Shown piece after piece: positions 6,083 to 12,406 of a stretch of 64,000 nt of DNA; position 1 is the first letter of the stretch; each line of letters begins with the position of its first letter. This DNA comes from an uncultured Faecalibacterium sp. (GTDB lineage Bacteria; Bacillota; Clostridia; Oscillospirales; Ruminococcaceae), in NCBI GenBank assembly GCA_934503275.1, contig CAKSVD010000006.1:1-64000 (forward strand). Direction: 5' to 3'. The position numbers and the translations under genes are program-made. Under the pieces are notes generated by a model, which did not search any database, was not told the DNA's origin, and saw nothing but the letters and a program-made list of their open reading frames with translations.

Positions 6083-7258
6083 ATGGTTTGTGTTGGAATT
6101 GACGTTGCCAAGGATAAGCACGACTGCTGTATTCTCGACTCGGACGGAACGATTCGTGCCGACTGCATTACCATCCCCAATAACATGGATGGCTTCAAGC
6201 AGTTGCTTCAGACGATTCGAGACTGTACCAAAAGGTCAGACAAAATAAAAGTAGGACTTGAGGCTACCGGGCATTATAGCTACAACATTCTTGGATTTCT
6301 TCTTGACAATGACCTGGCCGTCTATGTCATGAATCCTTTGCATACCAACCTGTACCGAAAAAGTCTCAGCCTTCGCAAAACCAAAACCGATCGTGTGGAT
6401 GCAAGAACGATTGCAACTATGCTATTGTCCGATGTAGACCTCAAGTCCTACACGGATACAGCATACCACAACGAAGAGTTAAAGTCACTAACAAGATACC
6501 GATTCGATAAGGTTCGTGAAAGAGCCAAGCTGAAGCAGTCAGTGTCCAGACTGGTCACGATTCTGTTTCCAGAACTGGAGAAGCTCGTTCCCTCTCTCCA
6601 TATTGCTTCGGTTTATGCGCTCCTCAGTGAATATCCCGGTGCAAAACAGATTTCAGAAATTCATCTCACCAAGCTGACAAACCTTCTTGTGACAGCATCC
6701 AAGGGTCGTTATGGCAAAGATAAGGCTATCCAGATTCGAGATGCTGCCAGAACTTCCATTGGTTCCGTTATGCCTGCTAAATCTCTGGAGCTGAAGCATA
6801 CCATTAAACTCATTCGGGAACTCACCTCCGAGATTGATGAAATTGAAGTTTCTATTCAGAAAATCATGGATGAACTGAATCCACCGATTCTTTCTATTCC
6901 CGGTGTCGGTATCCAGTCAGCAGCCATGATTCTTGCTGAAATCGGTGATTTTTCCAACTTTGAATCTCCTGACAAAGTCCTTGCTTACGCTGGCTGCTCT
7001 CCATCTACATACCAGTCCGGAAAACTTACAAACTGTTACGCTCACATGGAGAAGCGTGGTTCGCGATATCTGCGATATGCCCTTTACAATGCGACCAAGT
7101 ACGTCTGCTATTGGAATCCTGTCTTTGCTGAATACCTTGCCAAGAAACGTGCCGAAGGAAAGCATTACAATGTTGCCTTGTCCCATGCCACAAAGAAACT
7201 TGTACGGCTGATCTATGCTCTACAGAAGTCTGGAAAAGCATATCTTACAGCTGCCTGA
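6083..7258 (+). CDS. IS110 family transposase
   Basis: This 391-aa recombinase has the two IS110 domains. The N-terminal RuvC-like fold carries the DEDD residues: D7 in GIDVAKD, E60 in GLEATGHY, D103 and D106 in KTDRVDARTIA. The C-terminal Tnp20 domain contains SIPGVGIQSAAMILAEIGDF and AGCSPSTYQSGK, including the probable catalytic serine. Length is normal and no frameshift was seen, so it is likely active. GGAGG lies 7 nt before the ATG. It acts with an RNA guide encoded next to it. Confidence 0.95.
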   Translation: MVCVGIDVAKDKHDCCILDSDGTIRADCITIPNNMDGFKQLLQTIRDCTKRSDKIKVGLEATGHYSYNILGFLLDNDLAVYVMNPLHTNLYRKSLSLRKTKTDRVDARTIATMLLSDVDLKSYTDTAYHNEELKSLTRYRFDKVRERAKLKQSVSRLVTILFPELEKLVPSLHIASVYALLSEYPGAKQISEIHLTKLTNLLVTASKGRYGKDKAIQIRDAARTSIGSVMPAKSLELKHTIKLIRELTSEIDEIEVSIQKIMDELNPPILSIPGVGIQSAAMILAEIGDFSNFESPDKVLAYAGCSPSTYQSGKLTNCYAHMEKRGSRYLRYALYNATKYVCYWNPVFAEYLAKKRAEGKHYNVALSHATKKLVRLIYALQKSGKAYLTAA

Positions 7259-7302: not shown

Positions 7303-7450
7303 GCAGCGAACCCTTGACAAACCGAAGCATTCAAATGCTATCCTGATTTTGCGAGGGCTGGCTGGGCTTGCTTTGCTGTTCTCTCCGTCGCCCTCGCTGT
7401 TCCAAGACCAGCATTTGAAGGCTGTTTGTCATGGGCAGCGAATGGTTGAC
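7303..7450 (+). repeat. Nested inverted repeats with flanking direct repeats, downstream of tnp
   Basis: Three nested pairs are visible: TGACAAAC/GTTTGTCA (7315-7322 with 7424-7431), TTCAAATGCT/AGCATTTGAA (7330-7339 with 7410-7419) and GCGAGGGC/GCCCTCGC (7351-7358 with 7390-7397). The block is bounded by a direct repeat, GCAGCGAANNNTTGAC, at 7303-7318 and 7435-7450. It could be the IS right end, a second structured RNA or a small inserted element. Confidence 0.6.
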
Positions 7451-7504
7451 GGATTTTTTCATTTTGGGGCTTGACTTTTAATAGTTAGTCTCCAAATTTT
7501 TGCA

Positions 7505-8471: not shown

Positions 8472-9288
8472 CTGCCAGCACCTCCTTCGCAAGAGATTTG
8501 TAGGCTTCTGCCACCTTGCCTTTGGGGTCATAGGCAAAGATGCTCTTGCCTGCCGCACTGGTTTCTGCCGCACGGACAGACCGTGGAATAGTCTGCTCGA
8601 ACACTTTCAAGTGCTTTCCGTATGCCTGCCGAATCAGATTGCTGATCTGCTTTCCGTAGTTGGTGCGGCTGTCGGTCATGGTCAGCAGAATGCCCTCGAT
8701 TTTCAGCTTCGGGTTGATCTGCCGCCGAACCTTTTGGACGGTCTGCAAAAGCTGTTCCAGACCTTTTGCGGACAGGTATTGCGCCTGCACCGGAATCAGG
8801 GCAGCGTCTGCCGCCGCCAATGCGTTAATCGTCAGCATCCCCAGCGAGGGCATACAGTCCAGCAGAATAAAATCGTACTCCCGTTTGGCACTGTCCAGCA
8901 CCTGTTTCAGCATCTTTTCCCGGTTCATGCTGTTTACCAGAGCCACTTCCAGCCCTGCCAGTTCAATATTTGCCGGAATCAGGTCAACGCCCTCTGCGTG
9001 GTGCAGAATGCCCTCACCGGGCTGGATGGGCTGGTCGTTCATGGCTTTCTGCATCAGGGTGGAGAGGGTCGTGGACAGTTCATCGGGCTGCTGCCAGCCC
9101 ATGCTGATGGTCAGTGACCCCTGCGGGTCGGTATCCACCAACAGAACTTTCTTGCCCTCCATTGCCAGCCCGATGCCCAGATTCTCACAGGTGGTGCTTT
9201 TCCCTACACCGCCTTTTTGATTGGTGACTGCGATAATCGTAGCTTTCTTTGCGATAACATCACCCCGCCTTCGGTGAACCGCGCGCAA
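8428..9288 (-). CDS. ParA family ATPase (AAA, Soj-like)
   Basis: This Walker-type partition ATPase has the deviant Walker A KGGVGKST (residues 25-32), switch-like VDTDPQGSLT and Walker B FILLDCMPSLG. It should segregate the ICE with ParB. The start is unusual. The only standard start in frame is TTG at 9288, inside the end of repA. The well-placed GGCGGGGTG ribosome site is followed by ATG in the wrong frame (9257-9259), and homology begins about 15 codons after the TTG. Either TTG is used by coupling or there is a small indel here. Called 286 aa. Confidence 0.88.
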   Translation of the reverse strand: MRAVHRRRGDVIAKKATIIAVTNQKGGVGKSTTCENLGIGLAMEGKKVLLVDTDPQGSLTISMGWQQPDELSTTLSTLMQKAMNDQPIQPGEGILHHAEGVDLIPANIELAGLEVALVNSMNREKMLKQVLDSAKREYDFILLDCMPSLGMLTINALAAADAALIPVQAQYLSAKGLEQLLQTVQKVRRQINPKLKIEGILLTMTDSRTNYGKQISNLIRQAYGKHLKVFEQTIPRSVRAAETSAAGKSIFAYDPKGKVAEAYKSLAKEVLADADRQRKLSSERAR

Positions 9289-10208: not shown

Positions 10209-10238
10209 TTGACATTCACCAGAAAAAACGCTTACAAT
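10209..10238 (+). promoter_or_regulatory. Strong promoter of the DUF4869-ATPase pair
   Basis: TTGACA (10209-10214) and TACAAT (10233-10238) are 18 nt apart. Transcription would begin near 10245, so an in-frame ATG at 10237 lies inside the -10 box and cannot be the start. This supports the ATG at 10285. Confidence 0.75.
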
Positions 10239-10284
10239 GGTGATAATAAAAGTGTCAACCGATGTAACAGGAGAAGATGCTTAT

Positions 10285-10722
10285 ATGCTTAATGTTTTTT
10301 ACGGTGATATGCCGAACGTGATCTACAACACCGCTGTTTATTTTAAGAACACTTATGCAGAGGAGTGGATCACGGCTCCGCTTACTCGTGAGATGATACA
10401 AGACGTAGACCATTCCACTGTACTGGACAGCGGTGTGATTGATAGTCCGGTGCTGGGGAAAATTCCCCCGGTGCAGTTGTCGGGCGGAGTAAAGACCCTG
10501 ATTTTGATTGCCAACGAGCCGGAAAAGGTGTTCAACGCTTCGACCTGTGGAGATAACTGTGCCAAATGGCTGTTAAAAATCGCTGAAAATCGGGATGTTA
10601 CCATCAACCTTCGACATCTCATGGATTTTGGAAATGGAACATTTACCATCCGCATCCTGAACACCAATCAGATCGTTCACTCCATGCGGGAACTTGTCCC
10701 CGTTGCAGGACTTTATGTGTGA
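10285..10722 (+). CDS. DUF4869 domain protein
   Basis: This 145-aa soluble protein is recognised as DUF4869: it starts MLNVFYGDMPNVIYNTAVYF and includes GVIDSPVLGKI, LSGGVKTLILIA and GDNCAKWLLKIAE. No catalytic motif is evident and the function is unknown. AGGAG lies 11 nt before the ATG, and the promoter position excludes an earlier start. It is followed after 9 nt by the ATPase gene, and the pair runs opposite to the ICE backbone with its own promoter and terminator. This is the layout of a self-contained accessory module. Confidence 0.8.
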   Translation: MLNVFYGDMPNVIYNTAVYFKNTYAEEWITAPLTREMIQDVDHSTVLDSGVIDSPVLGKIPPVQLSGGVKTLILIANEPEKVFNASTCGDNCAKWLLKIAENRDVTINLRHLMDFGNGTFTIRILNTNQIVHSMRELVPVAGLYV

Positions 10723-10731
10723 GGATTTTTT

Positions 10732-11709
10732 ATGACAGGAGCATATCGGGTCGTTGTACAAAACCGAAAAATCAAGTTCGATTTTGAAATACGCCGGAAC
10801 ATCACGATCTTGCGTGGAGATAGTGCCACAGGAAAAACAACGCTCGTGGAGATGATTCGGGAATACGAGGAACTAGGCCCGGACAGTGGAATAGAACTGC
10901 AATGCGAGAAGGATTGCGTTGTTCTTTCCGGGCGGCAGTGGGAAAAACAGCTTGCCGACCTTTCGCAGAGTATTGTTTTTATTGATGAAGGGAATGCTTT
11001 TACTGCTTCAAAGGAATTTGCCGCAGCGATTCAGAAAACAGACAACTACTATGTCCTCGTCACGCGGGAAGGACTTGAAACATTACCGTACAGCGTGACG
11101 GAAATTTACGGCATCCGGGCATCCAAACACTTCGGAGACTTGAAACAGACCTACAATGAGTTTTTCCGAATTTACGGAAAGCCGATGGGACTGGAGAAAC
11201 TAAAACCAACGGCAATCATTACAGAGGATTCCAATTCGGGGTTCCAGTTTTTTCAGGCTGTTTGCGCCGAAAACGGAATTTTCTGCGAATCTGCTGGTGG
11301 AAAGTCCAACATTTTCAAAATGCTGTCCGACCGTGCAGGGGAGAATGTTCTGGTGGTTGCAGACGGTGCGGCATTTGGTTCGCAGATGGAGCGCATTATG
11401 CAACTGCTTGCCCTCCAGCCGGATTCCCATATTTACCTTCCAGAATCATTTGAATGGTTGATTCTTCGCTCTGGATTGCTCGAAGACACAGAGGTCGATG
11501 AAATTCTGAAATCGCCGGAAAATCATGTGGAAAGCCAGCAGTATTTCAGTTGGGAGCGGTACTTTACAGCTGTGCTGATGCAAAAGACTGTTGACAGCTA
11601 TCTGAAATATACGAAGTCAAAACTAAATCCGGTGTACTTGCAGGAACACGAAAAGAAAGCTGTTCTTTTGGAGATGTCCCACATCCAGCTCGACAAGAAA
11701 GACATATAA
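10732..11709 (+). CDS. P-loop protein with possible TOPRIM-like C-terminal half
   Basis: This 325-aa protein has Walker A GDSATGKTT at 29-37 and a Walker B-like VFIDE at 83-87, an ABC/AAA-like nucleotide-binding core. The second half shows TAIITEDSNSG (161-171), AGGKSN (189-194) and LVVADGAAFG (208-217). That spacing of a Glu after a beta strand, a Gly-rich turn and an Asp after a beta strand resembles TOPRIM domains of OLD-like ATPase nucleases. This is an inference from motif shape, not a database match. It is cotranscribed with DUF4869. A nuclease or defence role is possible but unproven. Confidence 0.7.
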   Translation: MTGAYRVVVQNRKIKFDFEIRRNITILRGDSATGKTTLVEMIREYEELGPDSGIELQCEKDCVVLSGRQWEKQLADLSQSIVFIDEGNAFTASKEFAAAIQKTDNYYVLVTREGLETLPYSVTEIYGIRASKHFGDLKQTYNEFFRIYGKPMGLEKLKPTAIITEDSNSGFQFFQAVCAENGIFCESAGGKSNIFKMLSDRAGENVLVVADGAAFGSQMERIMQLLALQPDSHIYLPESFEWLILRSGLLEDTEVDEILKSPENHVESQQYFSWERYFTAVLMQKTVDSYLKYTKSKLNPVYLQEHEKKAVLLEMSHIQLDKKDI

Positions 11710-11724
11710 ATCCCTACTAAGCAA

Positions 11725-11766
11725 ACAGGACTGCCTCACATACATTGCGCTGTGGAGCAGTCCTGT
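11725..11766. terminator. Bidirectional terminator hairpin
   Basis: ACAGGACTGC (11725-11734) pairs with GCAGTCCTGT (11757-11766) between two convergent genes. The T-rich flank is short on both strands, so it probably serves both. Confidence 0.65.
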
Positions 11767-11770
11767 TCGT

Positions 11771-12406
11771 TTAATATGTAATTGTCATTGCACCTTCATG
11801 GCAGTCCTGTGCATAGGTGCGGAGCAGATCAAGGTGCTTTGAGGATTTTCGGACGATAGCCGTTGCACGGTCACCAGACATAAACTCAACGACTGCAAGC
11901 CGTGGAATCGTCAGCGTGCCACGAATTTTGAAACCAACAAGGATCTTCTGATTGCACCATCGCTGGATGCTTTGTGCAGAGTAGCCCGTCAGTTCCGAAA
12001 CTACTGGGGTGGTCAGCAGATCATCATATCCAACCGTGAGTTTTTCCCATAGGGTGTATAGCCCTGTTTTTTCCGGTTCTGTAAAATTGAAGCGGATGAT
12101 CTCTGCGCGAGGCTTGTCCGGGTGTCGCTTGGAGCAGCCGTTCTTTCCGATATAAAAGCCCATTGGCACTTTATACTTTTCGGGGTTATCTTCACGGTCG
12201 CACAAGTAGGTGATCACGTCGTGGGTCGCAATATGGTATTTGCGTGTTTTCTTTCCTGTATTGATACACGGAACGAGACCGGAATCCAGAAGGTACTTTG
12301 CGTGTTGCTTGTTGATGCGGGCAACACGGTAGAACTGGTCTTTCGTCATTCCGTTGGGATAATCTTCGAGAATTTTATAGCACTCTAACAGAGTCCTCAT
12401 GTTCAT
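11771..12406 (-). CDS. HTH-domain ICE protein, 211 aa
   Basis: No precise family is recognised. Two regions look like helix-turn-helix units: residues 18-40 (GMTKDQFYRVARINKQHAKYLL) and about 133-155 (VVSELTGYSAQSIQRWCNQK). The latter is followed by a short wing, as in MerR/excisionase-type DNA-binding proteins. It is the last ICE gene before the tRNA junction, a common place for excision or regulatory proteins. A role in excision control is an inference from position. It ends at a terminator shared with the plus-strand pair. Confidence 0.6.
   Translation of the reverse strand: MNMRTLLECYKILEDYPNGMTKDQFYRVARINKQHAKYLLDSGLVPCINTGKKTRKYHIATHDVITYLCDREDNPEKYKVPMGFYIGKNGCSKRHPDKPRAEIIRFNFTEPEKTGLYTLWEKLTVGYDDLLTTPVVSELTGYSAQSIQRWCNQKILVGFKIRGTLTIPRLAVVEFMSGDRATAIVRKSSKHLDLLRTYAQDCHEGAMTITY

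Follow-up and report, generated by a model that had tools for sequence, protein, structure and literature searches.

The stretch of DNA analyzed here, hereafter the window, comprises positions 1 to 64,000 of the Faecalibacterium contig CAKSVD010000006.1 (assembly GCA_934503275.1, forward strand). Within it we examined a pair of adjacent genes encoding a DUF4869 protein of 145 amino acids (aa) and a 325-aa P-loop ATPase whose C-terminal half is likely to be a Toprim-like domain (Table 1). An earlier interpretation of the window, made without database searches (the sequence-only reading), described two plus-strand genes with a near-consensus promoter and a hairpin, all of which are present. Four promoter-like sites lie between 9800 and 12200, against 3.0 ± 1.9 in shuffled sequences, and only the quality of the site listed in Table 1 is unusual. 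Folding equal to that of the hairpin occurred in 0 of 200 shuffles; it lacks a clean T run and was not listed by a consensus scan of the locus. Because a longer ATG of the DUF4869 frame, at 10237, falls within the -10 box, translation probably starts at the ATG at 10285, the same start as in most of the homologs listed.

Table 1. Position and basis of the features of the DUF4869-ATPase locus in the window.
Feature	Position	Strand	Basis
Promoter-like site, TTGACA-18-TACAAT	10209..10238	+	Consensus match only, 11/12 positions
Likely ribosome-binding site, AGGAG, ahead of DUF4869 start	10269..10273	+	Seen directly in sequence
DUF4869 protein, 145 aa, predicted miniature ABC-ATPase head	10285..10722	+	PF16163, AF2 model, ABC-type matches
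ABC signature-like motif LSGG, DUF4869 residues 65-68	10477..10488	+	Conservation in 73 sequences
ATPase-Toprim-like protein, 325 aa	10732..11709	+	Open reading frame, AF2 pLDDT 84.6, homologs
Walker A, GDSATGKT, residues 29-36	10816..10839	+	G29 and S31-T36 98-100% conserved
Degenerate signature position, LSGRQW, residues 65-70	10924..10941	+	Family LxGxxW; G67 96%, W70 99%
Walker B, FIDE, residues 83-86	10978..10989	+	D85 99%, E86 99%
Likely Toprim-like domain, residues 160-246 (E165, D166, GKSN 190-193, D211, PESFE 237-241)	11209..11469	+	Conservation, strand/helix order, profiles
Hairpin, likely terminator	11718..11773	+	Folding energy -27.9 kcal/mol, z -4.84

The first gene product had already been named as DUF4869, and Pfam confirmed the assignment (PF16163, E 3.1e-63, 211.8 bits against a curated cut-off of 28.9); Pfam gives this family no function. 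Its AlphaFold2 (AF2) model is confident, with a predicted local distance difference test (pLDDT) score of 97.0. The DUF4869 profile aligned with those of ATP-binding cassette (ABC) ATPases at hhalign P values of 1.4e-5 and 3.7e-6, and Foldseek returned ABC-type rows for the model, with Septu PtuA first (8ee4_C, probability 0.97, E 8e-3); a sequence search of the PDB gave no match. The LSGG motif is strongly conserved among 73 DUF4869 sequences (L65 88%, S66 99%, G67 95%, G68 100%) and runs in the AF2 model into a helix at residues 67 to 77, the signature-plus-helix arrangement of an ABC head. Neither Walker motif was found: the consensus of the 73 sequences is without a GKT/S, and positions 82 to 86, where the Walker B acids were sought, are mostly I/V-F-N-A-S. 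In sequence and predicted structure, DUF4869 therefore looks like a miniature or degenerate ABC-ATPase head that has kept the signature and lost the Walker motifs. No published description of DUF4869 or of the pair was found, although the ABC-ATPase classification of Krishnan et al. 2020, which lay outside our search, may name the family.

The 325-aa protein presents the opposite picture. Pfam gave it P-loop matches only, all below threshold, PADLOC weak P-loop matches only, and a sequence search of the PDB with the whole protein found only an unnamed phosphate-loop protein (2e-4, residues 22-61). Its Walker A and B motifs, correctly recognized by the sequence-only reading, are nearly invariant in an alignment of the window protein and 205 homologs in which near-identical sequences were kept, the Walker A lysine, K35, being conserved at about 100%. 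An SGG signature was not found at the LxGxxW position of the family, and to judge by its sequence the protein keeps Walker A and B and is without a recognizable ABC signature.

This reciprocal loss of ABC motifs, as read from the two sequences, is more surprising than the nuclease idea of the sequence-only reading, which did not notice that the small partner resembles a degenerate ABC head bearing the signature that its neighbor appears to lack. According to the description in PMC7049728, the ATP that one head of an ABC dimer binds through its Walker motifs is touched by the signature of the opposite head. With opposite motifs missing from DUF4869 and its partner, a single composite ATP site built from both would be the simplest interpretation. 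We put at about one in two the probability that the pair is a split ABC-type ATPase governing a Toprim-like nuclease. The observations behind this estimate are the gene pairing, the complementarity of the motifs, the confident DUF4869 model with its ABC matches, and the invariant acids of the C-terminal domain; from them we infer a physical complex in which the DUF4869 head would supply LSGG and the 325-aa partner Walker A and B, so that a single composite site would form when both heads dock around ATP. As the complex closes, opens, or is disrupted, for example with a phage product as the trigger, the Toprim-like domain would be restrained or set free; once free, it would cut a nucleic acid substrate and stop growth, and the outcome would be a small solitary abortive-infection or addiction module with a role in defence. 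More tentatively, the two proteins may be reciprocally degenerated halves of one ABC ATPase, with a single composite site, divided across two genes, serving a Toprim nuclease as its safety catch; counting the divergent relatives, in which a third gene encodes the putative nuclease, they may make up a three-part family of conflict modules that spread in tight cassettes. If this is true, DUF4869 goes from a domain of unknown function to a signature-donating ABC subunit, ABC-Toprim systems gain a form with the ATP site divided between two genes, and a gut-bacterial family of conflict modules becomes testable by a few point mutants.

The pairing itself was assessed by scanning species-representative genomes with the ATPase; the best 80 matches gave 79 loci (L003 and L004 are the same). 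DUF4869 lies directly upstream of the ATPase in 77 of the 79, in some cases cut by a contig end, and the two exceptions (L038 and L061) have less than 150 nt of contig ahead of the ATPase. The distance between the two genes could be measured in 67 loci and falls between -4 and 16 nt in 59 of them. Among 295 genomes of one order, 20 contain DUF4869 and 21 give an ATPase match, which in one genome reaches only E 9e-4; every full-length ATPase found (11/11) adjoins DUF4869, with the gene order reversed in two cases (G213 C3 and G249 C1). The co-occurrence that the sequence-only reading proposed to check is thus evident in both sets, and supports the two genes as one conserved unit. No more than seven candidates were scored in most genomes, so that a lone ATPase could have escaped this census. 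In total, at least 7,028 ATPase and at least 7,992 DUF4869 proteins were found at E 0.001 or better. Plasmid and phage collections rarely contain the ATPase (3 of 72,556 and 5 of 50,697 records, respectively), and viral contigs gave one locus. Two proteins, P0002 (490 aa) and P0111 (329 aa), contain DUF4869 and ATPase in one chain and are either real fusions or frame errors.

Of 42 DUF4869 places, 28 were comparable. The rest were set aside because the partner was too divergent to judge: G252 accounts for 11 of them, all divergent, and G246, G113, and G002 (3786540) for one each. Some of the 28 are themselves partial or broken (G002 5116149, G002 5217658, and G260 1910). The ATPase is intact at 11 of these places, broken or truncated at 11, and missing from 6, leaving 17 of 28 DUF4869 copies without an intact ATPase, compared with 0 of 11 full-length ATPases without DUF4869 (Fisher 7e-4, for groups that overlap). 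The ATPase half survives in 7 of the 11 broken ATPase copies, a number no higher than expected from the fraction of the length that it makes up, and the pattern of damage to the Toprim half was therefore given no weight. One genome, G002, holds eight DUF4869 places, and another locus, L027, has two complete pairs and several DUF4869 fragments within 17 kb. By analogy with anti-phage systems that combine an ABC ATPase and Toprim, the pair probably acts as a conflict module in abortive infection or addiction; in favor of this is its patchy, multi-copy, and decaying distribution, in which DUF4869 often persists by itself but no full-length ATPase was found without its partner.

The same asymmetry and the multiple, decaying copies would also be expected of a toxin-antitoxin system in which the ATPase-Toprim protein is the toxin, DUF4869 is a neutralizer derived from a toxin-like head, and LSGG is a docking relic; the split HipBST system, as described in PMC9325769, offers a precedent. 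We regard this as unlikely, though deserving of serious attention. S66, G67, G68, and K70 of DUF4869 are kept at 93-100%, beyond the need of a relic, and since the small gene usually comes first, 3' losses would strike the ATPase in any case. The limited number of candidates scored means that lone ATPases may have been missed, and what suggests toxicity of the ATPase-Toprim protein is this genomic asymmetry only.

The split ABC-type ATPase reading also depends on the C-terminal half of the 325-aa protein. Residues 160 to 246 form four strands alternating with three helices in the AF2 model, a content that matches the Toprim core of TsOLD as given in PMC7049728. E165 follows strand one, D211 strand three, and E238 and E241 strand four, and these four acids and D166 are conserved at about 100%. 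The conservation anticipated by the sequence-only reading was thus found for the acids as for the Walker residues, and its D211 was numbered correctly, but the acids it called E166 and D167 are E165 and D166. The profile of the domain aligned with small profiles of DUF4435 at P 8.5e-4 (42 columns) and of RloB at P 1.7e-3 (86 columns, with the SFE motif aligned), both scoring above all 43 decoys, the best of which reached 0.042. In three divergent relatives (G246, G113, and G002), the ATPase part (frames of 150-173 aa) and the Toprim-like domain (frames of 232-285 aa) are separate genes adjoining a DUF4869-like gene. The family of the separate Toprim-like protein counts at least 1,164 members, and its alignment with the C-terminal half of the window protein spans 139 columns (P 5.6e-7); when the 295 genomes were searched with this family, no places other than these three came up. 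One member (L177) reads IIVEG...GGFSN...ISFDN, a VEG-type motif, another (L117) matches DUF4435 at E 0.006, under the curated cut-off, and a distant fused relative (L174) matches OLD-like_TOPRIM at 0.057. The conserved acids, the order of strands and helices, the weak profile matches, and the split relatives together uphold the earlier suggestion of a Toprim-like second half; we consider such a domain likely, short of proof, and a nuclease role for the protein plausible.

Several results weigh against a nuclease governed by a split ATPase. The second aspartate of the usual DxD is missing from the C-terminal domain, and the OLD profile aligned with the domain at P 0.076, below the best decoy. 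Neither L177 nor L178 gave any Toprim match, and the profile of the separate-protein family matched DUF4435 (0.04), RloB (0.02), and OLD (0.78) at chance level. The ABC motifs of TsOLD vary, according to PMC7049728, so that loss of the signature alone is no proof of a donor. Nor does the neighborhood point clearly to defence. The 25 commonest of 161 Pfam families near the pair are mostly regulators, sugar-binding, and metabolic proteins, and a scan of 136 of 138 near neighbors (two of L064 were left out) and 115 far neighbors matched 112 and 67 defence models, respectively, models that are redundant and of which, among the 25 commonest, none occurs in more than three proteins. Among those commonest models were mad2 (3), JetD (2), and type I and type II methyltransferases (2 each) near the pair, and DpdF, JetA, PsyrT, mad3, and BrxHI (2 each) far from it.

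It is improbable, in our estimation, that the C-terminal domain is instead another Rossmann-like, non-nuclease domain and the pair a regulatory ATPase. Alternating strands and helices are common to many folds, the Toprim profile matches are weak, and a PDB structure search with the whole model gave rows taken up by the ATPase half, with receiver domains among them; the invariance of E165, D166, D211, E238, and E241 and the VEG-type motif of a split relative argue for Toprim. Sequence searches of the PDB with the split Toprim family and with the C-terminal half gave nothing below 0.1, and a viral structure library returned mixed weak rows for the whole model, including two viral 'ATP-dependent endonuclease' entries.

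The combination of ABC ATPase and Toprim recurs in anti-phage systems including OLD, Gabija, retrons, AbiL, MADS, and PARIS, as described in PMC12409363 and PMC10568477. OLD family nucleases (classes 1-3, including GajA) join an N-terminal ABC-like ATPase to a C-terminal Toprim-like domain, probably the arrangement here as well, and a P-loop ATPase with Walker A and B is found here too. Class 1 OLD proteins are also comparable in being encoded, according to PMC10568477, by single genes that lie apart from candidate defence genes. The ATPase half here is only about 140 aa, however, and residues 1-141 of the model contain no helical dimerization insert such as that described for TsOLD (PMC7049728). 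The signature position reads LxGxxW, although OLD motifs also vary by the same account; the OLD profile gave no match, and the ATPase has a constant small neighbor bearing the signature. PARIS consists of an ABC ATPase (AriA) and a Toprim effector (AriB), fused or split, according to PMC12409363, and both forms occur here; AriB is described as cleaving tRNA (PMC12409363, PMC10568477). The PADLOC AriA model matched only the P-loop (residues 13-48, E 0.019), AriB gave no match, and the DUF4869 partner is an addition. For Septu, the best PADLOC match to PtuA (E 0.0022) covers residues 16-44 and does not identify a PtuA-type ATPase, and no HNH match was found among the five window proteins scanned. 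PtuA, whose structure heads the Foldseek rows for DUF4869, is a complete ABC ATPase. Asymmetric ABC heterodimers such as CydDC and BmrCD, which have one degenerate site and full-size transporter domains, show complementary motif loss leaving one competent site, as proposed for the pair, but DUF4869 has only 145 aa.

The pair behaves as a tight cassette. Some pairs of copies in different contexts (such as L011/L016, L034/L047, L039/L043, and L045/L046) are 87-93% identical in DNA, with the similarity limited to the genes and promoter region, starting about 40-180 bp before DUF4869 and reaching no more than about 40 nt from the ATPase stop. Other pairs of like identity share upstream flank (L048/L053, 2.6 kb; L023/L032, 1.8 kb), and L031 and L046 have 7.4 kb upstream in common and nothing past the ATPase stop. 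Of 64 copies, 7 lie between direct repeats within 450 bp, compared with 1 of 244 positions chosen at random from these loci (Fisher 9e-5); the 64 are loci with enough flank, and four self-matching loci, with DUF4869 cut by a contig end, were discarded. The repeats are 31 to 129 bp long and differ in sequence and position between loci. That of L057 is a tmRNA- or tRNA-like 3' end (by eye), and those of L012 and L028 are remnants of a second DUF4869 start. In L008 the 3' end of the upstream host gene is repeated exactly over 59 bp (7443-7501 and 8980-9038) across the point where the ATPase frame ends, which looks as though insertion had duplicated host sequence. No empty site was found from the flanks of L039 or L045 or from the helix-turn-helix (HTH) gene beside the pair, and L189, considered as an empty site, diverges ahead of the insertion point. 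That the pair is mainly a self-spreading cassette, with the ATPase-Toprim protein taking part in its own insertion or recombination, would account for the confined similarity and the excess of repeats, but seems very improbable given the long flanks that other close pairs share, the variability of the repeats, two of which are DUF4869 remnants, and the lack of a clean empty site.

The sequence-only reading took the surroundings to be an integrative element and placed the pair as cargo near an element end, a placement that does not hold generally. Only four families with at least four members recur among 461 neighbor genes (of at least 150 aa), the largest being ABC ATPases, and the pair is therefore an accessory module without constant neighbors; in two plasmid-collection records it lies amid housekeeping genes (proS and tilS in one, aro genes in the other). 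Within the window, where a RepA_N protein adjoins it in the Pfam scan, it is, by sequence comparison, variable cargo, since L189 has the same replication block at 75% DNA identity and no tblastn match to the pair. Faecalibacterium longum (L001) carries the same stretch, 93.7% identical over 4.3 kb; no match to the stretch was found in the plasmid search. On the opposite strand after the pair (11771-12406) is a 211-aa protein with HTH_17 (E 5.1e-9), and no relative of this HTH gene was found on viral contigs. A 391-aa frame at 6083-7258 looks like an IS110-type transposase.

In two genomes (L031 and L046) the pair has a Wadjet-linked Faecalibacterium context, in which a block of repeat, terminator, and promoter, the last two recognized by eye, precedes the pair as well as a type I Wadjet operon. 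A repeated block of about 40 nt, with terminator- and promoter-like parts in some copies, lies between Faecalibacterium gene cassettes in L046 (531-687, 7360-7401, and 9416-9457), L031, and L045, the cassettes including a type I Wadjet operon, a PRiA4_ORF3 gene, and the DUF4869 pair. In L005 (6032-7531), DUF4869 is preceded by four short plus-strand frames (105-114 aa), and in L052 a CRISPR-like array with repeats of about 32 nt (by eye) follows the ATPase at a distance of a few hundred nt.
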